Assembly (NCBI GenBank): GCA_014860625.1
Contig: JACZJJ010000149.1
Coordinates: 1-44,017, forward strand
Direction: 5' to 3'
Origin: Bacteroidales bacterium
Lineage (GTDB): Bacteria; Bacteroidota; Bacteroidia; Bacteroidales; FEN-979
DNA: 44,017 nt
Shown: one piece after another, positions 2,247 through 35,258 of the stretch
How positions within the stretch are numbered: the stretch's first letter is position 1
Layout of the letters: the number at the start of each line of letters is the position of its first letter
Notes under the pieces: model-generated
Database searches by the model: none
The model's input: the letters and a program-made list of their open reading frames with translations, nothing else
What the model was told of the DNA's origin: nothing
Position numbers and translations under genes: made by a program

Positions 2247-2254
2247 TCCAAATC

Positions 2255-5651: not shown

Positions 5652-5656
5652 GATCT

Positions 5657-6508: not shown

Positions 6509-6520
6509 CCTTTCTGAACG

Positions 6521-7570
6521 ATGAACCTGACAACATACAGTACAGATCCTGCCGGACTTCAGTCCTTTTATGAAGCGATCATCAGCGCTCATGACACCTA
6601 TGCCCCGGTAGAGAAATTTGGCAAATACGACTTCATCAAGGTTGACGCCCTCTCCTCCTGCAACCCTGATTCTCCGATTCCCAAAACGATGAGTGTGAAG
6701 CCGCTCTTCTTCCCCAAATCGGCCAGGGTGATGAAATACAAGGCTACCAGTGAAGGGACAGAGCTGTCCGATACGGAAGGTGATCCCCTGGCCGGAAAGA
6801 GGGTTGTGCTGGGAGTAAAACACTGCGATGCCCGTGGCCTCCAGGTCCTGGATGCCGTTTACAAATGGGACTATGTGGATACCGACTACGAGAAACGAAG
6901 GGAGAACACCATTCTGATCTCAACGCGCTGCAATGAAGCTTCTACCCATTGTTTCTGCACTTCTCTCGATTATGATGTGGAAAAGCTGGATGCTTTTGAC
7001 GTGGCTGTAATCAATGGATTGGACGGGAAGATATACCTTCAGGCCAGAACTGAAAAGGGGGAATTCTTCCTGAAAGAGAATGCAAATGGGTTAACCGTCG
7101 CCAATGGGTCGGCCCAGGAGGAGATGAAGCAGCAATTTGAAAAATTTGCCGGCTCCTTCCGTCTGAAAATGGACTATTCGGAGATCAACGAAAAGATGAA
7201 GGGCCGGTTTGACTCTGCAGTTTTTGAAGATATTCCTGCCAACTGTGTCAGCTGCAACACCTGTGCGTTTGTTTGTCCGACCTGTCACTGTTTTAAGATT
7301 TCAGACGAGAAACTCAAGGATGAAGGGGTGAGGTATAAGAGTTACGACTCGTGTAACAATGTCTATTTCACTCTGATGGCAGGAGGCCATAACCCCAGAC
7401 CCGTTAAATACCGTCGCTGGCGCCAGCGGGCCATGCACAAGTTTGTCTATTACAAGGAACGGTTCGACATGAACCTCTGCGTCGGATGTGGAAAGTGCAC
7501 CATCTCCTGCCCGGTAAACATTAGCATTTTTGAGGTAGTCAACCGCGTGGCTTCTTCAATGCAGGAATGA
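6521..7570 (+). CDS. flxB: FlxB-like 4Fe-4S dicluster protein (sulfhydrogenase beta-subunit family)
   Basis: 349 aa with CVSCNTCAFVCPTCHCF and CVGCGKCTISCPVNISIFEVVNRV; operon position. Confidence 0.7.
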   Translation: MNLTTYSTDPAGLQSFYEAIISAHDTYAPVEKFGKYDFIKVDALSSCNPDSPIPKTMSVKPLFFPKSARVMKYKATSEGTELSDTEGDPLAGKRVVLGVKHCDARGLQVLDAVYKWDYVDTDYEKRRENTILISTRCNEASTHCFCTSLDYDVEKLDAFDVAVINGLDGKIYLQARTEKGEFFLKENANGLTVANGSAQEEMKQQFEKFAGSFRLKMDYSEINEKMKGRFDSAVFEDIPANCVSCNTCAFVCPTCHCFKISDEKLKDEGVRYKSYDSCNNVYFTLMAGGHNPRPVKYRRWRQRAMHKFVYYKERFDMNLCVGCGKCTISCPVNISIFEVVNRVASSMQE

Positions 7571-7607
7571 AAACAATGCAGGAATGCAGAATTCTATGAA
7601 TAATAAT

Positions 7608-7665
7608 ATTCACGATATTCACGATACTCACGATACTCACGATATTCACGATTTCACGATACTCT
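7608..7665. repeat. Short tandem 'word' repeat (TTCACGATA / CTCACGATA)
   Basis: attcacgatattcacgatactcacgatactcacgatattcacgatttcacgatactc lies inside the operon between flxB and flxA. Confidence 0.9.
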
Positions 7666-7666
7666 T

Positions 7667-8500
7667 ATGGAACAACTTTTAGTCCCCATGATCTGTAAGG
7701 TCGAGAAAATCATCCAGGAGACCCCGGATGTAAGGACCTACCGGCTAAAATTTAAAGATGATTCCCTCACCGATAAATTTGACTGGATGCCCGGGCAATT
7801 TGTTGAGTTTTCCCTTCTTGGCAGCGGGGAATGCACCTTCTGCATCGCTTCATCAGCCACGCGCAAGGGAACATTCGATTGCTCTATCAAGCGGGCTGGG
7901 ATTGTAACTGCCGATATTCACCGTGACCTGGAGGAAGGGGATGAAGTAGGAATCCGTGGACCCTATGGCAATTGGTTTCCTGTGGAAGAGCTGAAAGGGA
8001 AGAATCTTCTTTTTGTCGGAGGCGGTATCGGACTGGCTCCATTAAGATCGCTTATCCAGTATGCCATAGATAACCGAGCCGATTTTGCTGATTTTACCAT
8101 TCTCTATGGCGCACGTACATCAGCCGATATCTGTTACAAGGAGGAGGTTGAAGAGTGGAAAAACAACAAATCACTCAAGGTTGTTCTTACAATTGACAAA
8201 CCGGAAGATACGTGGAAGGAACATGTGGGCGTTGTACCGAAAATTCTGGAAGAGGTGGTGAAACCGGTTATTGAGAATACGAAAGTCATCACTTGTGGTC
8301 CGCCAATCATGATCAAATATACGCTGATGTCGCTCGACAAACTCGGATTTAATCCTACCGATGTGATCACCACGTTGGAAATGAAGATGCAATGCGGATT
8401 GGGAAAATGCGGACGATGCAATATTGGAAGCACCTATGTATGCAAAGACGGTCCGGTATTCACTTATGAGGAGTTGAGTAAATTACCGGACGAATTTTAG
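7667..8500 (+). CDS. flxA: FlxA-like FAD/NAD(P)-binding oxidoreductase with C-terminal 2Fe-2S motif
   Basis: 277 aa: GQFVEFSLLG (FAD), GRGPYGNWFP-type segment, LLFVGGGIGLAPLRSLIQYA (NAD), and MQCGLGKCGRCNIGSTYVCKDGPVF (2Fe-2S). Confidence 0.82.
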   Translation: MEQLLVPMICKVEKIIQETPDVRTYRLKFKDDSLTDKFDWMPGQFVEFSLLGSGECTFCIASSATRKGTFDCSIKRAGIVTADIHRDLEEGDEVGIRGPYGNWFPVEELKGKNLLFVGGGIGLAPLRSLIQYAIDNRADFADFTILYGARTSADICYKEEVEEWKNNKSLKVVLTIDKPEDTWKEHVGVVPKILEEVVKPVIENTKVITCGPPIMIKYTLMSLDKLGFNPTDVITTLEMKMQCGLGKCGRCNIGSTYVCKDGPVFTYEELSKLPDEF

Positions 8501-8635: not shown

Positions 8636-9178
8636 ATGATAAAATATTCCCTGAAACACCGCGAACTCCTAAGTTCAACACCCAGGTTCGATGTTATTCA
8701 CGATAATGTGGAGATGGGTCAGATTGGCCCCCGGGACTTTTATTATCTTAAGAAACCCAGTTCGGTATGCGTAATCCCCTATACCAGGAATTCCATCTGG
8801 TTGATTTCGCTCAACAGATATCTTACAGGTGCTTTGGCATACGAGCTCCCAGGAGGAAGGATCGATACAGCGGAAGAGCCTCTTGCAGCTGCCATGCGGG
8901 AACTGCTGGAGGAAACAGGATTGGTATCAGACAGGTGGCACCTTTTGAAAGAGGTGTTTCCGGCTCCAAGTCTCACAGATGAGAAGGTCTATATATTCGC
9001 TGCTGAAATTTCAAATGAGACTCCGGTTCATGAAGTTGACAGGAATGAGGGAATTCTGGATTTTCATTTTGTAGGGATGGAAAAAGTTGTCCCGATGATA
9101 ACCTCCAGCCAGATTAACTGTTCGATCGATGGCTTTGCGCTCTTCTTTTTCCTGGAGTGGATTAAATCTCTTCCCTGA
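8636..9178 (+). CDS. NUDIX hydrolase (ADP-ribose pyrophosphatase-like)
   Basis: NUDIX box GGRIDTAEEPLAAAMRELLEETGLVSD. Confidence 0.9.
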   Translation: MIKYSLKHRELLSSTPRFDVIHDNVEMGQIGPRDFYYLKKPSSVCVIPYTRNSIWLISLNRYLTGALAYELPGGRIDTAEEPLAAAMRELLEETGLVSDRWHLLKEVFPAPSLTDEKVYIFAAEISNETPVHEVDRNEGILDFHFVGMEKVVPMITSSQINCSIDGFALFFFLEWIKSLP

Positions 9179-9884
9179 CGAGGTGTTCAATTTTCCCTGC
9201 AAAACTTTTATCAATCGGAAACACGGTGATCTCAAAAGAGTAAATCTCTTCCGTCTGTGCCAGCAGGTTGATGACCGGCATCCGGTTTACCGATACCCAG
9301 GGTGTAGAGAGGATGATTGATTTAATCTGTTGTACGACAGCATTGAGTTCATCAATTATTGGGCAATCCAGCGTAAATGTGTGCCCTTTGCTTTGGCCTG
9401 TTCTCTCGCTTTTGATATTAACTGCATCCACAACTTTTGCATACGGGATAAAAACAGTCTGGTTGTCTTGTGTCTCAAGTTCGAGCGACATGTTTCCGAA
9501 ATTTTTAATGGTTCCTTTGATCTCATTGAAATGGAGATAATCACCGGTTTTCAGCCTGGTAGAACTCCTGAAAATGACTCCTGCAATGATATCTTTCACC
9601 CAAAAACGCGAGATCCAGAAGAGCAGCATCAGTAAAACGGCCAGTACAACGAATACAAATATCTCATCGGCTTCATAGAAGAGAAATACATACCATGAGA
9701 GGTAGATCATCCAGAAAATCAGTTCAGCCAATGGAAATATTTTCATGAAATAATTCCTGGGTTTCTCTTTAAAGAGGAGAACAGCTAACAGGTGTCTGAG
9801 CAGGCGTATCACAATGAAACTAACCATCCCCCATCCAACAAAATGCAGGAAGATATGAGCAGGATCAGGACCGGTAATTTCCAT
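9162..9884 (-). CDS. MscS-like membrane protein, copy A
   Basis: 240 aa, several TMs, then DIIAGVIFRSSTRLKTGDYLHFNEIKGTIKNFGNMSLELETQDNQTVFIPYAKV, which resembles the MscS post-pore beta domain; starts 24 nt after the stop of the fusion gene. Confidence 0.72.
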   Translation of the reverse strand: MEITGPDPAHIFLHFVGWGMVSFIVIRLLRHLLAVLLFKEKPRNYFMKIFPLAELIFWMIYLSWYVFLFYEADEIFVFVVLAVLLMLLFWISRFWVKDIIAGVIFRSSTRLKTGDYLHFNEIKGTIKNFGNMSLELETQDNQTVFIPYAKVVDAVNIKSERTGQSKGHTFTLDCPIIDELNAVVQQIKSIILSTPWVSVNRMPVINLLAQTEEIYSFEITVFPIDKSFAGKIEHLVREEI

Positions 9885-9908: not shown

Positions 9909-12900
9909 CTACTGAATAATATTCTTCAGGTTGATATAGAGGTATCTGCCAAGTTCATAAATATGGCCAGCCCGCTCGTTGATCAATCCTGTCCGTTTCA
10001 GGAAGAGGAGTTGCTTCTCCACAGTCTCAATCGGATCCAGGGTTAACCGCTGAAGTTTGGACAGATCGAGTCGTTTATGCAAAAGAAACTGAACAAGATA
10101 AAGTCTGACGTTCGGGCTTAACCGATCAAGAATAGCACTGCCCGGTGTTTGTGGTTGTCTGATATACAAGGTGTCATCCTTGAAATCGGTGATGTTTGAT
10201 ACCCACGCCAGCAGGGCAGCACCAATGTTTCCACGGGTGTAGCTGAAATATTTGGCGAATAGTTTGGCCTGGGCAGTCCTTGTCAGTCGTATATTCCCTT
10301 TATCCGATCTTCGTATCTCGAGACCACTCGACAGATGTCGGAACATGATCACCTCCTGGATGGCCAACGTGTTGAAAGGCTTCAGGTCGACCACCGAAAG
10401 CATGCAGGATTCTATGTCGGAGACCTGGTTAATTACGCGGTAACTGGCTTCAGAAACCGTCAGGATAAACATGCATTTATGCCCGTGATTTCTGATCAGT
10501 TCTGCAATTGTTTCCACTACTGCATTCCCTGCCCGTGATTTCTCCCACCAAAGTTCAAGATCATCAATTACAATCAGAGAATCTTCTTCCAGTGCGTTAA
10601 AAATCTGGTCGGCATTGCCGTCAATTCCTGTACTCTCCCGAAGTGCTTTCAGAAAATCGGCCGGGTTACAGGAACCAGCTGGAGGAGTTGAGATTGCATA
10701 GACTTGATGTCCTGAAAGAAGGTTTGAGGAGATATAGTTGATGAAAAAGGTCTTCCCTGAATTCCTGTCGCCACGAATCAGGATGCCGCCAGGAAATCCA
10801 TTCATATACCTGGATATGGATTGCCTTACCTGAGTGATCTCTTTCTGGCGGTTTACCCAGAACTCAAATTTAAAGTTGTATTTCTGGAGAAAAAGTTGCC
10901 GGTAATAAAAGGGCAGCTTGTTCAATAATTCCTCCTGAGGGGTAACCCGTTCGTGCAATGTTAGCAATGAATCCACTACTGACCTCTGGTTCCCGTCTCC
11001 TGAACTGATCTTTTTAGCCAGAAGGAGGGCATCGCTTTGCCTGTACCAGATCGCTGCACTTAACCGGTATAGTCTCTGTCGGGCTGATCTCAGCGTGTTT
11101 TTCAGGAGATTGAATCTGTGCCGGGCATCACGCTTTTTAATGTACTGTTTGTATGTGTCAGGGGTATTGAGAAGACGTGTAACTGTGAGTTCGCCTACGG
11201 TAGAGATAATGTTCTGCTCCATTTCATCATGAAGATGGAGGAGTATATGCCGGATATTTTCCAACTCCTCTTCAACCACAGTCAGTTGTTCATTGACAAA
11301 GTCAGGGAATCTCTCCCCACCTCCCGGAAATCTTCCTGCAGCATCATCTTCCCGGAGAACCATCTCAAGCGTACTTTTTACCTCAGCGTTCATGTTGCCG
11401 ATGCTAACCAACCGGAGCGAGTTTTTTATCTTTCCGGCAGCTGTATACATTGACTTGGGAAATGTTCCTCTCATTTTATGCAACGCTTCAAAGAGGTGGC
11501 GCTGAACATGATAATCCACCAGCTGGTAGGTTGGAATTGTCAGAGGTTTCAGATTTTCACCAATGAGTTCAGCGGGTTCTAGTATACTTGCCGGGACAAG
11601 CAGCTCTGTTGATTCAGGCAGTTTATTTATCATGGCTTTTACGCCAATCAATGATTTTTCAATGATCTTGTCGAGAGCCAATTGAAACACTGTCCTGTCA
11701 TCCCACTGAAGCTCTGATTCGTCCAGGTTAAACTGTTTTGTTGCATCATGTTGGAGATCCTCCCTGAATTGTTTTAACCTTGTTTTCAAACTTTCGGCGT
11801 GAAGAAGAACCTCTGAATTGGTCAACTGTCTGATCTCATCCTGGAAGCGATCCACGATTTTCTGGAGGCGGAATGCCAACAGTCTGAGCCTGATGTCAAG
11901 CTTAATTCCGTTGTAAAGAAGGACCCGGTTTCCTGCCCAAAAAACCGGTCCCATACTAAGCTTCCGAAGAAGTTGTTTGAGTGCGGCCTGATTCTCTTTC
12001 GGTACATTTTGGTTGGGTGCTCCCGAATCAATGAGGTTACTGATGTCTACGAAGATCAACGATACCTGCTCAACCAATCTCTCAGATAACACATAGTTGG
12101 ATCCCTCACTTAGTGCTTTCAGCGTTTGGATGGCCCCTAAAACCTCTTTTTTAGCATCATCCAATCGGGCAGCAGGTGATGTGTCGTGTTGCAGGAGGTC
12201 AAAATAGGATTGGATTGCCTGAAGAAGGCTTCGAAACTGAGAGATGGTATCCAGATTAGTTTGACTGAGTCGAATCAACGAGTCGTTGAGATGCATGGTA
12301 AATCCTTCCGGTAGCACCTTCCTGATCATCCGCTGAAGCCTGACGGTATATGTAATTCCCTGGTTGATTCTCTTCTCAGAATGAATGAAACGAATAGATC
12401 TCTTGAAATTTCGGGCGGAAAGGGTCTCAGAATTGCGAATTTCAAAATGTCGGGAGAATAGCTTTATTCTGAAGGTAGCGGGGCTGTCATCTACGATCTT
12501 TTGGATGCCTGATACCAGAAACTGAATTCCTTTGCTCAGCCCTTCCTGCTGCTTTTTTAGGATTGTTTGCTGGAGCTCTTCGATAATTTTTTCAGAAAGA
12601 ACCAGCTGATTCGTTTTGATGTAGGCCAGTTGTCGGGCTTGCTTGCCAACCGGTAAATTGCGGAAGGAGGTGGATTCGATCTGTTTGATGGATTCCAGAA
12701 TATTTTTTTCCAGGGCAAGAACCTTATTTGTGTTGTACCTGAAAGCTGGCTGAACGAAATCCTTGTAGAATGTTGAGATAAGATTCACACAGGCTGTATG
12801 GAGTTTTTTCAGCTCTTCCGGGACTCCTTCAGGCAGGAGGTTTTCCGGTGATCCTTTTAACTTCTCAGGAGATGTTTGTTGAACGGGGTAGTCGGGAATA

Positions 12901-15110
12901 TAGGTATGCAGATGTTTGTCAGTTTCCAGGCTAAGTTGTTTAAATGTGGAGGATGCCTTGATTAATAATACCGTTCCAATCTCTTGCAGCAGGATGCTGG
13001 TTGTCTCAACATATTCTGATTCCCTCCCTTTTTCCAATTCAGGGATGCCGGTAATGACAAGATCTGTCAAGCGTGATTCGACCTGTACAATTTCATAAAA
13101 AGGCAACTGTTTGATATGGTTGTCGATCACCTTGACGGTTGCATTTATCCGAAGGGTTTCCAGCAACTGTTTTGCTTCGAGATGGATATGATCCTGCTGT
13201 TCTTTCAGGGAATTTACGATCATCAGGCGGATGGTAGCCTCAGACCATTGATCTGACAACAGAAGGAGTTTGGAAAGCGCCAATGCAAGGTTCCCCTGGT
13301 TGCTTATATCTTTCCACCAGATGTCGATGGTCTTGTATGTCCCAAAGCCGGTCCGTTTGTCCCAATCCAGCAGCAGTACATTCAAGTCAAGTTCGTAAAG
13401 GGTCTTCAGCATCTCCGCAAAACGCTCCGGTTGCCTCGTCTCCCGGGCCCAGCCCATCATCACAGTGTTTGGCTCAAACCCTGAAAATCCGTATACCCCC
13501 GCAATGGATTCGATACCGTCGTAGAGGTCCTTAACAGTTTTCCGTTGGGTGAACATGCCCGGGACCTGTGCATCGGCTAATAGGTCTTCATCAGTTCGGG
13601 TGACAAGTATCCGGGCATCTTTATTCTCTTTCAAGTCGAAATTTGACAATACACCATGCCTTCCAACCAGAGACTTGCCAAACTCAATCAGATGGGGTCG
13701 TTTCTCGGTACCCCCGCTGAAAAGAATGATATTGGGCTGCCAGTTCCGCTGCTCCATCGGACCCTTTTGCATTCTGTGCAGTGCAGTCCGTATCAAAGAG
13801 GAGTAAACGCTTTGCCATACATCATCCGTATTGGTGTTGCGCTGCTTCCGTTTCAGGTAGTAGTAGAGAAGCCCCATGATGATGAAAGCGGCGAACATAG
13901 ACACCATATCCAGCTTAAACATCACACCGAATGCCGCAATGAAGCCAACCAGCCCCACATACCGGCTTACCCGAAAAGAGGGACGAAAATCAGTGCTGGC
14001 CCAATTTTCCAGAAAGAAAGCTATGTTGATGAAGCCATAGGAGGCAAGGTAGAACATGGTAACGATTCCGGCGATTACATCCAGTTCCCCGATCAGGATA
14101 CCGGCTTCAGCAATCAGGAAGATGAGCAGAAGGGCGTTACGTGGTTCATTGGAGGCCCCATAGCCACGGGCAAAGATTTTTGGCGTGACCTTGTCGGCCG
14201 AAGTCGCCTGAAGGATCCGGGGCCCGCCCAGGATACCTCCCAGGGCAGAGGAGAGTGTGGCACCCCAGATGCCGGCGATTACAAAAGGAGCAAACCAGGC
14301 AATCTTCATCAGGAAGTTGTAGTCGGTCAGCAGCACGTCACGGTCCACATACAGGGCAAACCCGACGGCCAGCACAACATAGATGATGAAACCGGTAGCG
14401 ATGGCTGCCAATGTTCCCCGGGGAATCGTTTTTTGGGGATCTTTCAGGTCGCCCGACATAGCAACTCCGGCCGTAAATCCGGTTACGGCAGGGAAAAATA
14501 TGGCAAAGACAAGCTCCGGAGATACTCCGTCCCGGAAATATGAGATAGACACTGTCGTTGCTGTAAACCCGTCATTGACAAAAAAACCGACGAAAATGGA
14601 GATCAGCGACAACCCGATAGCTACCATGATATAGAACTGGGTTTTAATTGCCACGGAGGTGCTTATGAAGGCGAGAACAACCAGAAAAATGATGGCGGCT
14701 GTACCTACAATCCTGATTCCCATCACATTCTGCTCAAGACCCGTGAAATTCCGAATGGCATCAATGGAAAGAAAACTTTCAGCAAAACCGACAAGGTAGA
14801 GCGAAATGCTGAGGGCAGTACCAATAAAAAGCGTGATCCCGATGGCTCCGCCGATCGGCAATCCCAGGCTGCGGGAGAGGATGTAGTAGATTCCTCCGGC
14901 CTTGATCTTTTTATCGGTAGCAATTGAAGAGATACTAAGACCGGTGGAGATGGAGATCACATGGGCAAGCACAATGATCACCAGGGCACTGATCAGGCCG
15001 GCCTGTCCCACAACCCAACCCAGACGCATATACATGATTACACCCAGGATCGTTAGTAACGAAGGGGTGAATACACCAGCAAAGGCGCCGAATTTTTTGG
15101 CTTTTTCCAT
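9909..15110 (-). CDS. Giant fusion, copy A: SLC12/CCC-type transporter + long helical region + P-loop ATPase with winged-helix-like C-terminus
   Basis: Uninterrupted 1733-aa ORF. N-terminus GVFTPSLLTILGVIMYMRLGWVVGQAG and FFPAVTGFTAGVAMSGDLKDPQKTIPRGT are CCC signatures; NWQPNIILFSG and TIDIWW match the CCC C-terminal domain. Walker A GDRNSGKT at 10749-10772; Walker B-like LIVIDDLELWW at about 10545-10580; GNIGAALLAW sensor-2-like motif and a helix-turn-helix-like tail. Confidence 0.85.
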   Translation of the reverse strand: MEKAKKFGAFAGVFTPSLLTILGVIMYMRLGWVVGQAGLISALVIIVLAHVISISTGLSISSIATDKKIKAGGIYYILSRSLGLPIGGAIGITLFIGTALSISLYLVGFAESFLSIDAIRNFTGLEQNVMGIRIVGTAAIIFLVVLAFISTSVAIKTQFYIMVAIGLSLISIFVGFFVNDGFTATTVSISYFRDGVSPELVFAIFFPAVTGFTAGVAMSGDLKDPQKTIPRGTLAAIATGFIIYVVLAVGFALYVDRDVLLTDYNFLMKIAWFAPFVIAGIWGATLSSALGGILGGPRILQATSADKVTPKIFARGYGASNEPRNALLLIFLIAEAGILIGELDVIAGIVTMFYLASYGFINIAFFLENWASTDFRPSFRVSRYVGLVGFIAAFGVMFKLDMVSMFAAFIIMGLLYYYLKRKQRNTNTDDVWQSVYSSLIRTALHRMQKGPMEQRNWQPNIILFSGGTEKRPHLIEFGKSLVGRHGVLSNFDLKENKDARILVTRTDEDLLADAQVPGMFTQRKTVKDLYDGIESIAGVYGFSGFEPNTVMMGWARETRQPERFAEMLKTLYELDLNVLLLDWDKRTGFGTYKTIDIWWKDISNQGNLALALSKLLLLSDQWSEATIRLMIVNSLKEQQDHIHLEAKQLLETLRINATVKVIDNHIKQLPFYEIVQVESRLTDLVITGIPELEKGRESEYVETTSILLQEIGTVLLIKASSTFKQLSLETDKHLHTYIPDYPVQQTSPEKLKGSPENLLPEGVPEELKKLHTACVNLISTFYKDFVQPAFRYNTNKVLALEKNILESIKQIESTSFRNLPVGKQARQLAYIKTNQLVLSEKIIEELQQTILKKQQEGLSKGIQFLVSGIQKIVDDSPATFRIKLFSRHFEIRNSETLSARNFKRSIRFIHSEKRINQGITYTVRLQRMIRKVLPEGFTMHLNDSLIRLSQTNLDTISQFRSLLQAIQSYFDLLQHDTSPAARLDDAKKEVLGAIQTLKALSEGSNYVLSERLVEQVSLIFVDISNLIDSGAPNQNVPKENQAALKQLLRKLSMGPVFWAGNRVLLYNGIKLDIRLRLLAFRLQKIVDRFQDEIRQLTNSEVLLHAESLKTRLKQFREDLQHDATKQFNLDESELQWDDRTVFQLALDKIIEKSLIGVKAMINKLPESTELLVPASILEPAELIGENLKPLTIPTYQLVDYHVQRHLFEALHKMRGTFPKSMYTAAGKIKNSLRLVSIGNMNAEVKSTLEMVLREDDAAGRFPGGGERFPDFVNEQLTVVEEELENIRHILLHLHDEMEQNIISTVGELTVTRLLNTPDTYKQYIKKRDARHRFNLLKNTLRSARQRLYRLSAAIWYRQSDALLLAKKISSGDGNQRSVVDSLLTLHERVTPQEELLNKLPFYYRQLFLQKYNFKFEFWVNRQKEITQVRQSISRYMNGFPGGILIRGDRNSGKTFFINYISSNLLSGHQVYAISTPPAGSCNPADFLKALRESTGIDGNADQIFNALEEDSLIVIDDLELWWEKSRAGNAVVETIAELIRNHGHKCMFILTVSEASYRVINQVSDIESCMLSVVDLKPFNTLAIQEVIMFRHLSSGLEIRRSDKGNIRLTRTAQAKLFAKYFSYTRGNIGAALLAWVSNITDFKDDTLYIRQPQTPGSAILDRLSPNVRLYLVQFLLHKRLDLSKLQRLTLDPIETVEKQLLFLKRTGLINERAGHIYELGRYLYINLKNIIQ

Positions 15111-15222: not shown

Positions 15223-16860
15223 TCATTTATTCTTCCAGGCCTCCACATACTCCGATACAATCTCCTTAATCCCTTTGGCGATTTCGGTGTAGGAGTTCTC
15301 ATCAAGGTTGGCGAGTGAGACGCGGATCGACCATTCGGGACCGTCGAAACCGCCACCATTCAGCAGTACGATAGATTCGAGTTCGGCGAGGCGGAAAACG
15401 ACATCCACCGGTTCGAAATTCTTCTTCAGAAAAGCGGCAAACTCTTTGCCGTGATTCTTCTCTGCCCATAACATGATATCCAGTTCGGCATAGTATCCGG
15501 CCCGGTTGGGATTGGGGTTCAGTTTAAATCCCATCCCTTCGAAGAGCAAGGTCAGCCGGTTGTGGATGATGTCGCAAGTGAGCTGTTTGTATGCGTTTTC
15601 CTTGTCGAAAAGGGCAAAGGAGGCGAACAGCATCATCTGGATCTGCTGTGGCAGCGAGAGACCTGCCGTGTGGTTGAGCGCCACCATCCGGCTGTCGGCT
15701 ACCATCCGGTCAATGAACTTCAGCTTGTCAGGATGCAGGTGGATGGAGTGATACCGCTTGAAGAGAGCTTTCTTTTTAACTTCGGGGAGCTCTTTGATCA
15801 TCCTGTCATAGATATTATTTTCATGGAGGGCAATCACACCCAGCCGCCATCCGGTACATCCGAAATACTTGGAAAAGGAGTAGACCCCCAGCGTGTTGTG
15901 AGGGATTTCAGCCATCAGGGAGCGGAACCCTTTTACGAAGGTACCATATACGTCATCTGTGATGAACATCAGGTTGGGATGATCCTTTTTGATGATGTCG
16001 ATGATCTTTTTCCGTTCGCGGGGGCTGAGGGCAACAGAGGGAGGGTTGCTTGGGTTGACAAGGTATGCAATTTTAATCTCCGGATCTTTCAGCTTATCCA
16101 GCTCTTCATCAGGATACTCCCAGTTGTGCATCCCTTCGACATTTTTCCCGGTGGCGTTGATATGGATCACCTTGAAGTTGAACCGGTCGAGCTCGGGAAT
16201 CTCAATGTAGGGAGTGAATATTGGAACGAACAGAGCGACTTTATCACCCCGTTTGATCAGGAAGTTTTGCATCAGGGAGTCGAAGATGTAACACATAGCT
16301 GCCGTTCCCCCTTCCGTGGCAAAGAGGTCGTATTTCCCTTTTGGAGGACGGTTGTCGCACATCTCCTGCGTCAGGTAATCCTGAACAATGGCTTCAGGGA
16401 ACTTTAGCATACGGTCGGGAACAGGATACTGGTCCCCGATAACCCCTTCGGCGAGTTCATGAACGAAAGCATCGGGATTGAACTGGTGGGTTTTCAAACC
16501 ATAGCTGTAAAGCTCTTTAAGAAGGTTTATGCCGGGTTTTTCTTTATTTTTCCTGAGGAAAACATGAAACCGTTTAGCAATCCCCTCCTGCCTGGGAATA
16601 CCGGCAAGTCCCTGTTTGTAGTTCATCGCATGCCGGCACTCCTCCATCCCGAATTGCCCAAGTGTAAACAGAGCCTCCCTGGGTGTGGTTGCGATCCAGT
16701 TGGGGTTTCCTCTACCGGCATTCAATGTGGCATGTGTGGTTTTGTTGGTATGATGACTTGCCAGATTGATGAGGGTGTTTTTGATTTCGAACGGACTCAT
16801 CTGTTCGAGCTTCTTTTCAGCAGAACGGCTTGTTTTGATTGCTGGAATTTTTTTTGCCAT
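15223..16860 (-). CDS. aspD: Bifunctional aspartate aminotransferase / aspartate 4-decarboxylase
   Basis: 545-aa fold-type I PLP enzyme with YSFSKYFGCTGWRLG (PLP lysine); length and neighbouring AspT match AspD. Confidence 0.88.
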   Translation of the reverse strand: MAKKIPAIKTSRSAEKKLEQMSPFEIKNTLINLASHHTNKTTHATLNAGRGNPNWIATTPREALFTLGQFGMEECRHAMNYKQGLAGIPRQEGIAKRFHVFLRKNKEKPGINLLKELYSYGLKTHQFNPDAFVHELAEGVIGDQYPVPDRMLKFPEAIVQDYLTQEMCDNRPPKGKYDLFATEGGTAAMCYIFDSLMQNFLIKRGDKVALFVPIFTPYIEIPELDRFNFKVIHINATGKNVEGMHNWEYPDEELDKLKDPEIKIAYLVNPSNPPSVALSPRERKKIIDIIKKDHPNLMFITDDVYGTFVKGFRSLMAEIPHNTLGVYSFSKYFGCTGWRLGVIALHENNIYDRMIKELPEVKKKALFKRYHSIHLHPDKLKFIDRMVADSRMVALNHTAGLSLPQQIQMMLFASFALFDKENAYKQLTCDIIHNRLTLLFEGMGFKLNPNPNRAGYYAELDIMLWAEKNHGKEFAAFLKKNFEPVDVVFRLAELESIVLLNGGGFDGPEWSIRVSLANLDENSYTEIAKGIKEIVSEYVEAWKNK

Positions 16861-16872
16861 GATATAGGTCTT

Positions 16873-18618
16873 TTAATTCATTAGGAAAACAATGATGATC
16901 CCGCAGACAATCAGCAGGGTATTGCCAACGGCATAGGTGACAGTATATCCCAGCGTTGGAAGAGGACTCTCCAGGGAGTCCTGCACGGCGGGCAGGGCAG
17001 CCGTGGTGGTTCGTGCGCCGCAGCAGCAGCCGAGACCGATGGCCACATCAAATCTGAAGACATAGCGTGCCAGGATGATCCCGATAAGCAGTGGGATGAG
17101 AGAGGCTAACGCACCGATAACAAAAAGCATGGCTCCAACCTGTTTCAGACCCTCCACGAAGCTGGGTCCTGCCGTGATGCCAACCACGGCGATGAAAGCC
17201 GTTAATCCAAGGTTCGTCATGATCCAGAGTGCCGGCTGAGGAATCTGGGCAACGGTGGGATGCTTGGACCGGAGCCATCCGAAGAAAAGACCTGCGATCA
17301 GTGCTCCTCCGCTGGTACTGAGGCTAAGGCTCACCTTGCCGATATGAAATGCCATTACTCCGATCAACCCACCGAGAAGGATGCCAAGGCCAACGGAGAT
17401 GAGATCGGTTGTGTTGGTCATGACATCGGGAATTCCAAGGAGCTTTACGGCAGCCTGCACATCTTTCTGAGGACCAATGATGGTGAGCATATCCCCTTTA
17501 TGCAATACGGTTTCCGGCATCAAAGGGATTTCGGTTCCAACCCGTGTTATCTTTTGAAGTGAAACACGGAGGTCATAACGCTGGTGGCTTAATTCACGAA
17601 CCGTGAGACCATTGATATCTTTGGTTGTAAGCAGGACTTTTACCGATTCTACGTCATACTTCAGCAAAAGAGGATCAAAGATCTCTTGCCCTATGACTTT
17701 CTCTTCCGTGATAATATTGGCTCCTTTTCCCTGAAGGACTACGTCGTCGTGGGCTTGAAACGTATAGTCGGGGGTGGGATCCAGGATTACCTTTGTCCCT
17801 TTGCTTCTGACCTTTTCGATATATATCCGATATCCGTCATCAACAAATTTCTGTTGCATCTCCTGAACTGTCTTCCCAACAAAAACAGAGTTGGTACTGA
17901 TGTTAAAAGCTCTGAAAACCACCCCTGTAAAGGTGGAGATCAGGCTGGGATCGTCCGATCCCACTCCCATTTTGGCTGCCAGGTCAATACACTGCTGCCG
18001 TGCTTTCTTCAGACCACCCCAGAAGAGGGGACCAACCTGGGCAAGGAAAAAGGCAGAACCGATAGTCCCGAAGAGGTAGGTAACGGCATAGCAGACCGGG
18101 ATCGCGTTGATCATGCTCTGTTTGAGTGCCGGATCAACATTCAGCGAGTTGATGGTATCCCCTCCCACACCAATAACAGCTGATATGGTTTGGGCGCCGG
18201 CAAACAGACCGGCAGTTTGCCCGGCATTGTATCCCATCATTTTTGCAAGTAACCAGGTAGATATCAGGGCAACACCGGAGATGATGACAGTAAATAGCAG
18301 CTGTGGCAGACCTGTTTTCTTCATGCTGTTGAAGAACTGGGGACCAACGCTGTACCCCACCGAAAAAAGAAAAATGAGGAAGAAGATCTGCTTCACGTCG
18401 TTGGAGATATCAATCTTCATCTGACCCACAAGGACCCCTACCAGAAGAACACTGGTAACACTACCAAGGGAGAAGGTTTTGTATTTGAAACGACCGATAA
18501 AAAATCCGGCTGCAATGGTCAGAAATAACGCGAGTTCGGGATGTTCTCTGAATGTAGTAAGGAACCAGTTCATAGTGATGATATTAATTTGACATCCGAA
18601 TGTAAAGAAAATATTCAA
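16873..18618 (-). CDS. aspT: Aspartate:alanine antiporter (AspT family, two central TrkA-C-like domains)
   Basis: 581 aa, two TM halves (FFIGRFKYKTFSLGSVTSVLLVGVLVGQ...; LISVGLGILLGGLIG...) around RCK/TrkA-C-like segments; directly precedes aspD on the same strand. Probable start is the internal ATG of MNWFLTTFREHPELALF near 18570. Confidence 0.87.
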   Translation of the reverse strand: MNIFFTFGCQINIITMNWFLTTFREHPELALFLTIAAGFFIGRFKYKTFSLGSVTSVLLVGVLVGQMKIDISNDVKQIFFLIFLFSVGYSVGPQFFNSMKKTGLPQLLFTVIISGVALISTWLLAKMMGYNAGQTAGLFAGAQTISAVIGVGGDTINSLNVDPALKQSMINAIPVCYAVTYLFGTIGSAFFLAQVGPLFWGGLKKARQQCIDLAAKMGVGSDDPSLISTFTGVVFRAFNISTNSVFVGKTVQEMQQKFVDDGYRIYIEKVRSKGTKVILDPTPDYTFQAHDDVVLQGKGANIITEEKVIGQEIFDPLLLKYDVESVKVLLTTKDINGLTVRELSHQRYDLRVSLQKITRVGTEIPLMPETVLHKGDMLTIIGPQKDVQAAVKLLGIPDVMTNTTDLISVGLGILLGGLIGVMAFHIGKVSLSLSTSGGALIAGLFFGWLRSKHPTVAQIPQPALWIMTNLGLTAFIAVVGITAGPSFVEGLKQVGAMLFVIGALASLIPLLIGIILARYVFRFDVAIGLGCCCGARTTTAALPAVQDSLESPLPTLGYTVTYAVGNTLLIVCGIIIVFLMN

Positions 18619-28088: not shown

Positions 28089-28808
28089 TCATGAAATCAC
28101 CTTCAGGGAGGGGATTTTTTCCAGAGCAATTTCGATAAATTTCATATGCTTCTGGCTCATAGAGAAGAGCATGATCTCAAATATATTCCCGATTTCGCTC
28201 TCTTTCAGGAATTTAATGGTGGGTTCTTCTTTCAGGTTACTCCAGGGAGTGTTCAGGATCGTATCACGGATTCGTGATTCAGCAACCGATTTACTTATTT
28301 CGTTGTTAACCTGAATATGGATCGTATGCGCCGCCAATGCTTCTGTGTGTGTCACTTCTGAAATCACTTCATGGTTTAGTCTGGAATACGGAACCCGGAG
28401 CAACTGACCGTCATCCGTACGGATCCTGATATAGGTCAGGTGCTGGGATTTGATATTTCCGGAAAGTCCTCCGAAACGGATATGTGTACCGGATTTTAAA
28501 TTGTGCTTCACCTTAAATATGACGCCTGCGAAGATGTCGCGGAAGAGGAACCAGGAAAAGAAACCGACAACAATGAAAATAAGGGCAATAACGAGATATT
28601 GGTAATAAAACTTTCCCCGGAATAGGTAATCCAGAGCCCAGAAAATATAGGATAGCCAGATAATGAATTCAATAGCCGAGAAAAGAGTAATACGGAAATT
28701 CCAATCCGGATATCGCTTTGCCAATCGTTTTAACCCTATTCTGACGGCCTTCAGCATCAAAAAGGCCATTAATGCAACAAAAAAGGCGATGATAAATTTC
28801 ATGATCAT
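28089..28808 (-). CDS. MscS-like membrane protein, copy B
   Basis: 239 aa; FRDIFAGVIFKVKHNLKSGTHIRFGGLSGNIKSQHLTYIRIRTDDGQLLRVPYSRL is collinear with copy A. ATGA overlap with the fusion stop at 28805-28808. Confidence 0.72.
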   Translation of the reverse strand: MIMKFIIAFFVALMAFLMLKAVRIGLKRLAKRYPDWNFRITLFSAIEFIIWLSYIFWALDYLFRGKFYYQYLVIALIFIVVGFFSWFLFRDIFAGVIFKVKHNLKSGTHIRFGGLSGNIKSQHLTYIRIRTDDGQLLRVPYSRLNHEVISEVTHTEALAAHTIHIQVNNEISKSVAESRIRDTILNTPWSNLKEEPTIKFLKESEIGNIFEIMLFSMSQKHMKFIEIALEKIPSLKVIS

Positions 28809-31800
28809 AACAATCCCTCCCTTTTAAATGTACGCATGAGATGAGGCTCAACGAAACCATTCACCATATACAAGTCTTCTTTCATTTTTTCTATCAGCCC
28901 GGCTCTTGACAGGGAGCCGATGATGGCTCTTGTCCATGCTTCATCCGACTGAAATATTTTCTGAATTCGTTCATAGGTCAACCATTTATGGACGATCATT
29001 TGGACCAGAACGACTTTCCAGTCATCATCCATCTCTGACAGGATTCTTGTATCCGGGATGTAAGGAGGCCGGATATGGATCTTATGGTCTGATATTCTGA
29101 CGATGTTTCCTATCCAGGCTTTGAGGGCTGTTCCGGGATTTCCTTCCGAATAGTCGAAGTACCTGTTGAATAGTCTCGCCATCTCTATTTCCGAGAGTTC
29201 TCCCTCTTCCTTTTTGTGCAGGATAAACTTCATGCTGCTCGAACGTTGCCTGCGAATAATCATCTCTTTGAGCTCCATGGAATCTAAGGGTCTCAAAGGG
29301 ATAACGCTGATGAATTCATTCTGCAGGTCTATCAATTTATTTATAAATTCAAAAGCGAACGTGTTCATGTTTAAAACAAACAGGAATTTATTCCCATAGT
29401 TGTTGATCAGGTCGATGAGAAGTCTGACTACACCCCATCCTTCGGTCGAACGCTCCCACCAGCATTCAACATCATGAATAATAAAAACACTGTCTTGGGA
29501 AAGCGATTCCAGGATCTCATTCAGATTCCCCTGTGTTTTGGTAACTCTCCGGAACTCATCCACGAATTCTGACGGATTGGCAGACCCTTCTGGTAGAGGG
29601 AAAAGATGGTAAACTTTCTCCTTTGGAAAGAGCTTACCGGTGATATTCTTGCAGAAAGTGGTCTTCCCCGAATTTCTTCCTCCGATAATCATGATCCCTC
29701 CGGGGATGCCCGACTGATACCGTCTGACAGCTGTCCTGAAAACCTCTTCATCTTTTTTCCGACTGATCCAGAAATCTTCACTGATGGTGGACTGGCCACT
29801 GAACAGGTTTTTATAAAACTGGGGAAGCAAATCTGTCACCTTTTCTTTTGGGCTGACTGATTCGACCAGGTCAAGGAATTTTTGGTTTCCCGAACTTACC
29901 TGTTCCGACTCCATAATCTTTTTCGCCAATAGAATTCCTTCACTTCTGGAATAGAGTACTCTGGCGGATAAACGGTTGAAAGAACTCCCAATGCGTTCAA
30001 AATAAGCATCAAATGTTCTCATGACTTTTTTGCCCTGGTGCTCCCGGATGAACTGTGAATATTCCGCCACGGTAGAAGGCATTTTATATGCTGATAACTG
30101 AAGGAATACCTCCTGCAGCGAAGTTTCAAAAAAATGAACTATCTGCTCTTTAACCTGCTGGATTTTTTCTTCTTCTTGCAGGATCTTGTGGTAAGCATCT
30201 GCAATAACAGGAGAGGCTACCTCTGTTTTATCGGGCATGTCATCCGGAATATTCTCAAGGGTAAATCGGGTAAGACTGAGAAGGTCCAGAATCTCGAGAA
30301 TAGAATTTTTTAACGTTTGTGATATCGTTTCCAGATGGTCATGAGTAGTGCCCAGGAACCGGGAGTCTATATAAAATCTGGTGATTCTCCTTAATGGAAC
30401 CGTTAAAGCCTCGGTAGCTTCACCGGATGCTTCGTCATTCTTTCGGTAGGAAGTAATGACAAGGCTTTCTGGCAGTGTTTCTGAATATTTCAGGATTTCG
30501 TCTTCAAACCGGCTGAAATCTTTCAACAAGGTGATATGTTCATCAAATGAAGAGAGGTTTATTTTTAATCCGGGGATGTCGGGGAGGGTATCACCGAAAA
30601 TTTGGAGTTTTGACCTGATTGCCTGGAATTCAGCTTTGTAATAGGCATCCAGTTGCATGGCAAAATTCAGGTTCAACTCATTGATCTTATCTTTGATCCG
30701 GCTCTTGTACGACTGCAACAGCACATCCAGATAAATCCGGTTAACCTGCTGCAACGTCATTTCATACCATGATTCAGCAAACAATGAGTTTTGCTGGACC
30801 AACTCCCCGTAATATTTTTTATTCCTTCGTTTTTGCCTGATGCGATAGTTGATATCGACCTTCCCCAGGTCGTTGCTCATTAACTGAAGGTTTTTCCTGA
30901 ACTCCAGTAATAGACGGTGGCAGGCCTGTTCATGCCGGATACTGATCCCAGACTCCAGTTCCCTGATCTTAAACTCAATCTCCTTCTGCCCGGCACTCAC
31001 AACTGTTGAAAAATCTCCCTTTTTTGCGGGTTTATCCAGTAACGTTTCCAACATAGTATCAACGGAAGTAATCAGAGTTCTGCTATCTGACAAATCGGCG
31101 AAAAGGTCATCCTGCAGCTTGTCCAGAAAAGCGGAAAGAAAGAAATGACGATTATTTCGCAGGTAATATTCTGCGATTTCGTGATATCGGATCTTTCCCT
31201 GGATTGTTTTCCGGGAGAAGGGATGAGCCAGGCGTCTTCTGAGTTTGAACCATTTCAACCTGACAGCATCGTTTTTTTTCGGTACAAGATCCTCCTTTTC
31301 GTAAAGGATTTTGAGTCTCAGGGGGAATTTCATTAGGTCCTCGTCGAGTCGATCGATATACCATGTTATCCCGTTTTCAAGTGCATCCCTGAGAATTTTA
31401 AGCTTGATGCTTGTCAGGTCGGTGAAGATCCGGTTTGTATGGAAATAGAAGTCGTTCTTGATTTTAATCAGGGCTTTTGTCCTTCGGTACTTATCAGAGA
31501 GGGCTTTCATTTTTGCTAATCGTGCAAATACCGAATTTACAGCTGTTTTCAGATCACCAGCAACATATTGCATCTCTGCAAACAGAGGAGAGATGGTTTT
31601 TTCGCTGAAAAGGGTAAGTACTTTCTGTCCGTTGATATCTATTTTGCTGATATCCTCATTAATCAGATGGTATTTAGAAGGGTGCAATTCGGGCAGGTCA
31701 AGATGCAATAACGGCTGAGGCTTTTTCCTCTCTTCCTCTCTGATCTCTAACCCGAGATCGAACGTTTCAAACCCCGAAGAACTGTTAACCAGGAAGAAGG

Positions 31801-33904
31801 TTCCAAGAGTTTTTGAATAGATCATGACCTCTTCGTAGGTTTGATCGATATGGTAATACTGCTTATCGGGGATGCCGATAAAAGTCAGATCAGCCTGATC
31901 GGATTCCCGGGAAATGATCTCGTGTTTGGCTAAGCCATCAATGCTGTTGTTGATGATTTTAATCTCAAGGTTTATCCGGTAGTGGTTAATAATTTGTTTC
32001 AGCGTTTTATGCAGGCTTTCCGTCCTTTCCTGTAAATTATTAATCACCAGCAACCTGATATGTGCATCTTTCCATTCTCCGGCTGCAGTGAAATGTCGGA
32101 GCAGGAAGATCGAAAAGGTAAGGTTGCTCCCCCATCCGCTCCACCACACATCTATCTTTTCCTTATTTCCAAATTTTTTCAGGGGGTTATAATAGAGGAA
32201 AGTTGTGTTGAAATCACTCTCTTCAAAGTTTCGGATCAGTCGTAAAAACTTCTCTTTGTTTTTTTCATTTTTACTCCAACCCATAAGGATGGTATTGGGT
32301 TCAACTCCGGAAAAGCCATACACCCGCGCAATCTCATCCATCCCTGAATAGATGTCACGGCATTTATGCTGATGAATCAGTAACTCATCTTTCTTTCCTG
32401 AAGAGGAGAAATAGCGTTTATCTTTTAAAAGTTGCGGATCATCAGACTCCACCAGTTCGAATGCGGAAAGAAGGCCTAGCCTGCCACTAAAGGCTCTTGC
32501 AAATTCGACCAGATGTGGTCGTGCCTTATCCTGGCCGCTGAAAAGAATGATATTGGGCCGCCAGTTTCGGGTGTGGATTACCGATTTGTTCAATCGGGAC
32601 AGGCCGGTTCTGACCAGGGTGGCCCAAACACTGCTCCAGGCATCCCCGGTTTCAAGTACCAGTTGCCTTCTCTTGAGAAAGAAAAACAGGGAGCCAAGGA
32701 TAACAACTGCTCCTATCATGGCCAGGAGGTCCAGTTGTATCATAACAAGGATACAGGCTAAAGAGCCAATGATACTGACCCATGGCGGCGTTTTAAAAGA
32801 AGGCCTGAAATCGGCGCTGGTCAACGATTCAAAAGCAGCGCTCAGGTTTAAAAACCCGTAAGTGGTTATAAAAAAAACAGAAACAATCCGGGCAATTACA
32901 TCCAGATCGCCAATCAGAATACCTGCCTCTGCAATAAAAAAAGTAAGCAGGAGGGCATTTCTGGGTTCCTTTGCGGCGCCTGTACCTAGTGCAAAGATCC
33001 GGGGAGTTATTTTATCCATTGCAGTGGATTGCAGGATCCTGGGAGCAGCGAGAATGCTGCCAAGGGCTGAACTCAATGTAGCGCCCCAAATTCCGGCTAT
33101 CACAAGCTGCGGGACCAGCGCTATCTTGAAGAGCGCCCGTGGATCAGTGGCCAGGAAGTTCCCGTCTACCGTATAAGCAAAGAAAAAAGCAAGACCAATA
33201 TATACGGCCAAACCGATGGCAATAGCCGAAATAGTGCCACCCGGAATAGATTTTTTCGGATCCCTGAGATCGCCCGACATGGAGACCCCGGCTTCAAATC
33301 CGGTCACAGAAGGGAAAAAAATGGCGAATAACACCATCAGGGAAACACCTGTGCCAGAGCCGAAAAAGTTTGGAGCAGCGGGCATATGACTATGATTGCC
33401 AAATAAAATTGACAGGAGCGATAGAAAGATGGCTGCCATGATCAGGTATTGAGCTTTGATGGCCAATGATGTACTGATCAATGTGATGATGGTCACTAAT
33501 ATCAAGATAATGCTGCCCGCAATACGGATATGGTTTATATCCATAGGGAGGTCCCAGTACCCAAGAAAGCTTTCTGCAAAACCGATGAGATAGAGACTGA
33601 CACTAAATGACAACCCAACAAACAATGCCAATCCCAATGTCCCCCCGATGGGAAGGCCCAGGCTTCGGGAAATGATGTAATAGGTCCCTCCCTCTTTCAC
33701 CTTCTTGTCGGTTGCTATCGAAGAAACGCTCAAACCTGTGGTTATCGAGATAAGATGTGCAATCAGGATGATGCCAAGCGTGCCAAATAACCCGGCTTCA
33801 CCGGCAATCATGGGAAGGCGCATATACATGATAACGCCCAGGATGGTAAGAATGGAGGGAGTGAACACCCCGCCAAAAGTTCCAAACTTCTTAATTTTTA
33901 TCAT
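28805..33904 (-). CDS. Giant fusion, copy B: SLC12/CCC-type transporter + long helical region + P-loop ATPase with winged-helix-like C-terminus
   Basis: Uninterrupted 1699-aa ORF, collinear with copy A: GVFTPSILTILGVIMYMRLPMIAGEAG, FFPSVTGFEAGVSMSGDLRDPKKSIPGGT, NWRPNIILFSG, KIDVWW; Walker A GGRNSGKT at 29660-29683; Walker B-like VFIIHDVECWW; GNPGTALKAWIGNI sensor-2-like motif. Confidence 0.85.
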   Translation of the reverse strand: MIKIKKFGTFGGVFTPSILTILGVIMYMRLPMIAGEAGLFGTLGIILIAHLISITTGLSVSSIATDKKVKEGGTYYIISRSLGLPIGGTLGLALFVGLSFSVSLYLIGFAESFLGYWDLPMDINHIRIAGSIILILVTIITLISTSLAIKAQYLIMAAIFLSLLSILFGNHSHMPAAPNFFGSGTGVSLMVLFAIFFPSVTGFEAGVSMSGDLRDPKKSIPGGTISAIAIGLAVYIGLAFFFAYTVDGNFLATDPRALFKIALVPQLVIAGIWGATLSSALGSILAAPRILQSTAMDKITPRIFALGTGAAKEPRNALLLTFFIAEAGILIGDLDVIARIVSVFFITTYGFLNLSAAFESLTSADFRPSFKTPPWVSIIGSLACILVMIQLDLLAMIGAVVILGSLFFFLKRRQLVLETGDAWSSVWATLVRTGLSRLNKSVIHTRNWRPNIILFSGQDKARPHLVEFARAFSGRLGLLSAFELVESDDPQLLKDKRYFSSSGKKDELLIHQHKCRDIYSGMDEIARVYGFSGVEPNTILMGWSKNEKNKEKFLRLIRNFEESDFNTTFLYYNPLKKFGNKEKIDVWWSGWGSNLTFSIFLLRHFTAAGEWKDAHIRLLVINNLQERTESLHKTLKQIINHYRINLEIKIINNSIDGLAKHEIISRESDQADLTFIGIPDKQYYHIDQTYEEVMIYSKTLGTFFLVNSSSGFETFDLGLEIREEERKKPQPLLHLDLPELHPSKYHLINEDISKIDINGQKVLTLFSEKTISPLFAEMQYVAGDLKTAVNSVFARLAKMKALSDKYRRTKALIKIKNDFYFHTNRIFTDLTSIKLKILRDALENGITWYIDRLDEDLMKFPLRLKILYEKEDLVPKKNDAVRLKWFKLRRRLAHPFSRKTIQGKIRYHEIAEYYLRNNRHFFLSAFLDKLQDDLFADLSDSRTLITSVDTMLETLLDKPAKKGDFSTVVSAGQKEIEFKIRELESGISIRHEQACHRLLLEFRKNLQLMSNDLGKVDINYRIRQKRRNKKYYGELVQQNSLFAESWYEMTLQQVNRIYLDVLLQSYKSRIKDKINELNLNFAMQLDAYYKAEFQAIRSKLQIFGDTLPDIPGLKINLSSFDEHITLLKDFSRFEDEILKYSETLPESLVITSYRKNDEASGEATEALTVPLRRITRFYIDSRFLGTTHDHLETISQTLKNSILEILDLLSLTRFTLENIPDDMPDKTEVASPVIADAYHKILQEEEKIQQVKEQIVHFFETSLQEVFLQLSAYKMPSTVAEYSQFIREHQGKKVMRTFDAYFERIGSSFNRLSARVLYSRSEGILLAKKIMESEQVSSGNQKFLDLVESVSPKEKVTDLLPQFYKNLFSGQSTISEDFWISRKKDEEVFRTAVRRYQSGIPGGIMIIGGRNSGKTTFCKNITGKLFPKEKVYHLFPLPEGSANPSEFVDEFRRVTKTQGNLNEILESLSQDSVFIIHDVECWWERSTEGWGVVRLLIDLINNYGNKFLFVLNMNTFAFEFINKLIDLQNEFISVIPLRPLDSMELKEMIIRRQRSSSMKFILHKKEEGELSEIEMARLFNRYFDYSEGNPGTALKAWIGNIVRISDHKIHIRPPYIPDTRILSEMDDDWKVVLVQMIVHKWLTYERIQKIFQSDEAWTRAIIGSLSRAGLIEKMKEDLYMVNGFVEPHLMRTFKREGLL

Positions 33905-33995: not shown

Positions 33996-35258
33996 ATGGA
34001 TTTTCAAAATCCGTATATTGTAGTCATTGCAGTTTGCCTGATCCTTATTTTGTCCTACCAGTTCAACTGGATTTCGAAGGTATCCAGAATTCCCAGCGTT
34101 CTCTTACTGATTCTGCTGGGAATCGGCATCAGGGTTGGCCTCGATTACCTTGATGTAAGGACAGGCAGCTTAATGAGTTTACTGCAGGTCATCGGCATCG
34201 TGGGGTTGATCATGATCGTTCTGGAAGCCTCCCTGGAGCTGGAACTCACACGAGGGAATCGCACATTGATCCTGAAATCCTTCTTCCTGGCCCTCTTCTC
34301 GCTTGGAGCATGCATCCTGTTTATCACCTGGTTGCTGAACAGGTTTGTGATCGACGATCTCTTTTCTGCCATTCTTTATTCCGTCCCGCTGTCGGTCGTC
34401 AGCAGCGCGATTGTTATCCCAAGCGTGGGAAGCCTGCTGAAACAAAAGAGAGAATTTCTGATCTACGAGAGCACCTTTTCCGATATCCTGGCGATCATGG
34501 TCTTTTTTTATCTCCTCAGCAACATCAATATGGCTTCTGTTGGAAGCATCGTTCTGAATGTTTCAGTAAATCTTGGCATCACCATAATCCTCTCCGTTAT
34601 CATCGGTTATGTAATGGTGATCTTGCTCGACAAACTTAAATCACAGGTCAAGCTTTTCCTGCTCATCGCCGTACTGATGCTTCTCTACTCCATCGGCAAG
34701 CTTTTCCATTTCTCCTCCCTGGTAATGATCCTGGTTTTCGGGATCATCCTCAACAACAGCCCTATTTTCTTTTCCGGAAAGATGAAACGGTGGATCGATA
34801 TGCCTGCACTGAAAGTGGTTCAAAATGATTTTCAAATCCTCACAATGGAGTCGACATTCTTTATCCGGACCTTCTTTTTCGTGATATTTGGGATCACCCT
34901 GGAACTAAACAATTTGTTGGATAAGAGAGCAGCTTTGATTAGCCTGGCCATCATTTCAGGTATCTATCTCATACGGATTGTCAGCCTCAAGATCTTTTTG
35001 GTTAAACGGATATTCCCCGAAATTTTTGTGTCACCAAGAGGGCTTATCACCATTCTTTTGTTTTTCAGCATCCCAGCCACTTACCAGAGTGTGAGTTTTA
35101 ACCCCGGCATCCTGCTCTATGTCATCCTTGTCACCAGCATCATTATGGCACTTTCTCTGATGGTCAAAGGGAGGGACAGGAAGTACGCCGAAAAGCTGAA
35201 TTTCAGTGATTGGGATGAACTCGACAAGGAAATCGAGCAACTCTCAAAAAAGAAGTAA
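33996..35258 (+). CDS. Cation:proton antiporter (CPA family)
   Basis: 420 aa, about 12 TMs; VPLSVVSSAIVIPSVGSLLKQKREFLIYESTFSDILAIMVFF and SPRGLITILLFFSIP; divergent from fusion B with a 91-bp gap. Confidence 0.8.
   Translation: MDFQNPYIVVIAVCLILILSYQFNWISKVSRIPSVLLLILLGIGIRVGLDYLDVRTGSLMSLLQVIGIVGLIMIVLEASLELELTRGNRTLILKSFFLALFSLGACILFITWLLNRFVIDDLFSAILYSVPLSVVSSAIVIPSVGSLLKQKREFLIYESTFSDILAIMVFFYLLSNINMASVGSIVLNVSVNLGITIILSVIIGYVMVILLDKLKSQVKLFLLIAVLMLLYSIGKLFHFSSLVMILVFGIILNNSPIFFSGKMKRWIDMPALKVVQNDFQILTMESTFFIRTFFFVIFGITLELNNLLDKRAALISLAIISGIYLIRIVSLKIFLVKRIFPEIFVSPRGLITILLFFSIPATYQSVSFNPGILLYVILVTSIIMALSLMVKGRDRKYAEKLNFSDWDELDKEIEQLSKKK

Follow-up and report, generated by a model that had tools for sequence, protein, structure and literature searches.

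Bacteria survive osmotic change with MscS-type valves and ion pumps, and in animals cell volume is controlled by SLC12 transporters that are regulated by kinases; salt transporters of the human kidney and of human nerves belong to this family too. To our knowledge, the known CCC members stop after the CCC C-terminal domain. Nucleotide-binding regulators are found on other ion transporters: the K+ uptake systems TrkH-TrkA and KtrAB contain ATP/ADP-sensing RCK subunits, and KefC-type CPA2 antiporters carry KTN domains.

The window analysed here, 44,017 nucleotides of a Bacteroidales contig, encodes in two copies a protein that would work like these systems, with a nucleotide-binding domain in the cytosol that regulates the attached ion transporter. 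It differs from the TrkA and KTN systems in that the regulator is a predicted P-loop ATPase of AAA+/STAND type rather than an RCK or KTN domain, the transporter belongs to SLC12 and an MscS-like protein is the putative second subunit. The permease, the C-terminal domain, the Cl−-site tyrosine and the NKCC/NCC-like Na+-site serines are common to this protein and the SLC12/CCC proteins (TCDB 2.A.30; KCC3, NKCC1, NCC, archaeal MaCCC), but about 1000 extra residues, comprising a helical module and the ATPase, follow the C-terminal domain, and the K+-site Tyr is replaced by Phe. A P-loop core, a lid and a winged-helix tail are shared with the AAA+ proteins Orc/Cdc6 and RuvB, archaeal ATPase_2 (PAB2304) and STAND NTPases; in contrast to these, the fusion has no DNA-related context and is joined to membrane transporters. 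The individual domains belong to known families, and it is the system-level combination that is new. No description of the fusion or of the MscS-paired system was found in the open-access literature, in line with a first-pass annotation that knew of none; a salinity paper considered as a possible description (PMC10219603) was unrelated.

Domain layout of the fusion proteins

The first-pass annotation had proposed a single 1733-aa ORF at 9909-15110 in which a CCC core, a helical linker and a P-loop ATPase are joined. Exactly these coordinates were recovered, and the parts of this protein (copy A) were delimited as follows.

9909..15110, minus strand: SLC12-helical-ATPase fusion, copy A, 1733 aa; intact ORF with 0 internal stops
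13821..15110, minus strand: SLC12/CCC transmembrane permease, residues 1-430; Pfam AA_permease 1e-48; PDB chains of KCC3, NKCC1 and NCC, E down to 6e-81
12921..13820, minus strand: CCC cytoplasmic C-terminal domain, residues 431-730; Pfam SLC12 7.5e-9; KCC3 alignment reaches residue 708
10956..12893, minus strand: helical module, residues 740-1385; long helices in AF2; hhalign matches to transporter-less and CPA-fused relatives
10146..10955, minus strand: P-loop ATPase core and lid, residues 1386-1655; AF2 and Foldseek (RuvB, ORC, PAB2304); motif conservation
9912..10145, minus strand: winged-helix-like tail, residues 1656-1733; AF2 secondary structure; weak profile matches to winged-helix regulators
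10749..10772, minus strand: Walker A GDRNSGKT; K in 65/66 SLC12-fused homologues
10545..10571, minus strand: Walker B VIDDLELWW; catalytic E in 66/66 SLC12-fused homologues
10203..10232, minus strand: GNIGAALLAW motif, copy A

Both parts of the CCC core were matched above the Pfam gathering thresholds, AA_permease at residues 12-437 (1e-48) and the SLC12 C-terminal domain at residues 592-667 (7.5e-9), as had been claimed. The helical linker is present, although its length is ~650 aa (about 10956-12893) and not ~700 aa. Walker A lies precisely where it had been placed, IDDLELWW and GNIGAALLAW were both located, and a winged helix is predicted by AF2 where a helix-turn-helix-like tail had been read.

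By sequence, the strong PDB relatives of the permease are KCC, NKCC and NCC structures only. The K-Cl cotransporter family TIGR00930 was matched with 417 bits (E 1.3e-124) against a cut-off of 953, that is, the permease is related to but outside that curated subfamily. Residues of the ion sites were defined from PMC7889885, according to which KCC and NKCC share the K+-site tyrosine but NCC does not, and mutation of the Na+-site serines abolishes most transport. Among the fused permeases, the Na+ site (Ala, Ser and Ser in TM8, as in NKCC/NCC) and the Cl−-site tyrosine are each kept in 57/57, and the K+-site tyrosine in TM3 is Phe in 55/57. Since the Na+-site serines are kept and the K+-site tyrosine is replaced, a Na+/Cl−-coupled mode is probably a better guess for the fused permease than a KCC-like one.

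The AF2 model of residues 731-1733 (mean pLDDT 82) comprises a helical arm, a P-loop domain and a winged-helix tail, and the closest solved folds to its ATPase part found by Foldseek were RuvB, Orc/Cdc6 and the archaeal Walker ATPase PAB2304. Because the ATPase profile, searched against PDB sequences, returned weak, mixed matches only, the fold is settled by prediction; it agrees with the proposed P-loop fold and supports an ATPase of the AAA+/STAND/Orc kind. Weak Pfam matches of residues 1417-1551 to AAA_16 (6e-5; 24.0 vs 32.6 bits) and ATPase_2 (0.01) stayed below the curated cut-offs, and no AAA/STAND Pfam family exceeded its cut-off in any member tested. There was no Pfam match to a TrkA_N Rossmann domain in the fusion and no LSGGQ-type ABC signature between Walker A and B of copy A; neither the ATPase module nor the fusion corresponds to a family in Pfam, NCBIfam or PADLOC.

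In the SLC12 class the catalytic glutamate is present in all 66 sequences, and the Walker A lysine and the Walker B aspartate in 65 each. The CPA class described below keeps the Walker lysine but not the acids, the lysine is lost in the class with MscS upstream, and one arginine after the ATPase core is invariant in all sequences of all classes. Hydrolysis is not universal to the module, since the Walker motifs are degenerate in many relatives outside the SLC12 class; the conservation pattern suggests that ATP binding is important in the SLC12 class, hydrolysis probably too, and both less so elsewhere. The helical module is homologous across the classes, with hhalign probabilities of 97-99 between SLC12 and the others and of at most 5.5 for reversed controls.

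A second fusion is located in the same window.

28805..33904, minus strand: copy B of the SLC12-helical-ATPase fusion, 1699 aa; shares 34% identity with copy A

The copies are most alike in the permease, where stretches of 100 residues reach 69% identity, and least alike in the helical region. Because of the low overall identity and their placement in different subclades, the copies are regarded as old paralogues, and a tandem duplication within the window was rejected on these grounds. A third, permease-less ATPase homologue on another contig of the same genome (L033:7850-11847, minus strand) has a degenerate Walker A (GELGSGVT), and its next gene encodes a canonical MscS.

Distribution and the MscS-fold partner

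Orthologues of copy A with the full architecture occur in three congeneric genomes, at 77, 68 and 67% identity, and in another family at 44%, and the architecture also occurs in dozens of further genomes; given this recurrence and the near-invariant Walker A lysine, it is far from chance. A survey of named genomes yielded 113 ATPase relatives, of which 80 were kept. These belong mostly to Bacteroidales and other Bacteroidota, with some in Ignavibacteria, Calditrichota and Myxococcota, and the family is widespread; Enhygromyxa salina, Plesiocystis pacifica and Plebeiobacterium sediminum are among the cultured carriers. Nearly all complete relatives in this survey are SLC12-helical-ATPase fusions of ~1700 aa. 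In 396 sampled genomes of the phylum the ATPase was detected in 75, mostly as a transporter-less type of ~1000 aa beside MscS. Within one family, 42 of the 62 good genomes carry it, as a rule in a single copy, and those that lack it are chiefly small, which is a housekeeping pattern. Clean transporter-less members within the SLC12 clade are only L147 and L127. Split genes were discarded as evidence of modularity, since the single in-frame stop in L115 and the overlapping frames in L106 and L152 may be errors, and ORFs of 1300-1540 aa in L081 and L082 were attributed to over-extension from high GC.

The gene next to the transporter fusion had been missed; with the partner next door at nearly all loci, the functional unit is taken to comprise at least two genes.

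9162..9884, minus strand: MscS-fold partner of copy A, 240 aa; 24 nt after copy A; Pfam MS_channel_2nd 5e-9
28089..28808, minus strand: MscS-fold partner of copy B, 239 aa; 4-nt overlap with the copy B stop; Pfam MS_channel_2nd 9e-10

As in the MscS family, the partner has three TM helices, a beta-domain and an alpha/beta domain in AF2 (Foldseek MscS 9e-11), and its Foldseek and profile matches are nearly full length. It differs from that family in being shorter, with the C-terminal barrel absent from the 240-aa protein, in a TM3 without Gly/Ala packing and in its pairing with a helical-ATPase gene. An MscS gene lies directly downstream in 72 of the 78 homologous loci with room for it, at a gene spacing of at most 80 nt in 57/58 and overlapping in 27. 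The source genome has only nine MscS domains in total, and three of them adjoin the three ATPases. The pairing persists where the transporter is absent or swapped for a CPA exchanger. Six loci with SLC12-type ATPases (L112, L114, L117, L095, L165 and L092) have no MscS gene nearby; in L092 the next gene instead encodes a P-loop protein (GLRGTGKTT). In high-GC Myxococcota, missing MscS genes were an ORF-calling artefact, the gene being present in another frame.

MscS partners from the transporter-less systems have a canonical pore helix, TM3 (GFAAQDILKNIFGG...DRPFQVGD), with G/A/S fractions of 0.37 and 0.50, compared with 0.55 in E. coli MscS. The fraction is 0.19 in the SLC12 class and 0.18 in the CPA class, and the Gly/Ala packing is gone in both transporter-fused classes. 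The p-value of the difference in composition (4e-16) is inflated by shared descent, the independent cases being the two fusions and the L083/L085 branch. Four outliers with low values occurred in the set classed as transporter-less: two share their operon with a CPA gene, L106 is a frameshifted SLC12 fusion and L133 is clipped at a contig end.

In six genomes (L076, L077, L078 and L166-L168) the helical-ATPase is fused to a CPA Na+/H+ exchanger, which was identified by Pfam in L076 (7e-19) and by profile in the remaining ones. The operons are ordered CPA, CPA-ATPase, MscS, TrkH, TrkA with several 4-nt gene overlaps, and TrkA is a separate gene. At other loci MscS is found upstream, or TrkH directly upstream, and a permease-less ATPase in L147 is accompanied by MscS, TrkH, a CPA2 antiporter and a TrkA-like protein. 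The module is thus not tied to SLC12 alone, being found standalone and fused to a CPA exchanger as well. In the ATPase tree the members of the CPA class group together (100/99) and separately from the SLC12 clade; transporter fusion therefore most likely arose at least twice. A CPA gene is also present in the window.

33996..35258, plus strand: CPA Na+/H+ exchanger, divergent from copy B; Pfam Na_H_Exchanger 2e-13

Members of this CPA subfamily are likewise divergently placed beside fusions in L102, L103, L109, L113, L138 and L153, and are found downstream of MscS in L083 and L085. The genomic company of MscS, Na+/H+ exchangers and TrkH/TrkA supports the setting in ion or osmotic control that had been suggested.

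A candidate unit for ion and volume control

With a probability of roughly 0.5, the two genes form an ion- or volume-control unit in which the helical-ATPase is an ATP-operated switch that couples the MscS-like subunit to ion transport. The cytoplasmic module would act as a switch of the AAA+/STAND (Orc-like) kind, and its helical arm would connect the SLC12 transporter with the MscS-like membrane protein, which may sense membrane tension or conduct itself. Binding and hydrolysis of ATP would decide the on or off state of the cotransporter, probably Na+/Cl−-coupled, and the output would be an ion flux for osmotic or volume control. The covalent fusion, the tight gene linkage, the fold classes and the conserved motifs are observations; contact between the ATPase and the MscS partner is suggested by gene order, and control of ion flux by the ATPase is a proposal. 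Known structures place the C-terminal domain of CCC proteins in the cytoplasm, where the alpha/beta domain of MscS is found too, so the helical-ATPase is on the right side to bridge both. Differing stoichiometries (CCC dimer, MscS heptamer, AAA+ ring), the degenerate Walker motifs of many relatives outside the SLC12 class and the six loci without a nearby MscS gene count against the two-gene switch.

In relatives, the module may be a portable regulator of osmotic ion traffic whose target is either just an MscS channel or, next to TrkH/TrkA, a CPA Na+/H+ exchanger. Plausibly the ancestral form was an ATPase-controlled MscS channel, which a transporter joined later, and the channel partner may then have turned into a sensor. 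A stricter version is put forward tentatively: in the transporter-fused systems the MscS-like protein would be a tension sensor and no longer a valve, switching the secondary transporter via the helical-ATPase, and such a tension-to-transporter relay would have evolved at least twice (SLC12, CPA) from the ATPase-controlled channel. If the ATPase does tie the MscS-fold protein to the transporter, bacteria would have a volume regulator with an energy switch of its own, built on the animal cell-volume transporter family, and the systems would offer a natural experiment in which one regulatory module was attached to two unrelated transporters and the channel degenerated upon attachment.

That the partner is instead an ordinary conducting valve, gated by the ATPase according to energy state while the cotransporter refills salt, is unlikely; its full MscS topology and the canonical MscS of transporter-less relatives speak for it, and the odd TM3 would then be divergence, but the Gly/Ala knobs are gone in both independently transporter-fused classes and the 240-aa partner has no C-terminal barrel. 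It is quite unlikely that the ATPase is an AAA+ assembly or quality-control factor for the MscS-fold protein and the transporter rather than a switch of their activity. A chaperone covalently fused to one transporter copy would be unusual, and the Walker A/B residues needed by a remodelling motor are lost in many relatives, even though the AAA+-type fold and an MscS pairing more constant than the transporter pairing would suit such a role.

A phage-defence or cell-suicide system, with a STAND-like sensor opening a membrane pore, is very improbable: weak STAND-like Pfam matches (nSTAND1/3/5) occur in some members, but PADLOC gave no convincing match, the single copies in 42/62 genomes of one family with absences mainly from small genomes argue otherwise, and the neighbours are ion transporters and housekeeping genes, not defence genes. 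Hardly credible is a primary pump in which the ATPase directly drives uphill transport via the SLC12 domain. The near-invariance of Walker A/B in the SLC12 class and the covalent fusion would be expected of a pump; against it, the ABC signature is missing before Walker B, the fold is nearest RuvB/Orc, the Na+ symport site is intact and the module also exists without any transporter. The missing signature and the RuvB/Orc-like fold also support the original preference for a nucleotide switch over a pump motor.

Other genes of the window

Upstream of copy A, at 15223-18618 on the minus strand, a 545-aa aminotransferase-fold protein and an Asp-Al_Ex permease with TrkA_C domains are encoded, a pair that resembles an aspartate decarboxylase and aspartate-alanine exchanger ('virtual proton pump'). 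This gene order is kept in related genomes (L023, L026), and the pair is possibly co-operonic with the fusion. A heterodisulfide-reductase-like electron-transfer cluster at 1677-8500 on the plus strand (Fer4, CCG, HdrA-like, FlpD, FrhB-like, NAD/FAD reductase) points to an anaerobe. A 475-aa ORF with no Pfam match (21694-23121, plus strand) is situated between two large putative secreted proteins, both of which have C-terminal sorting-like tails.
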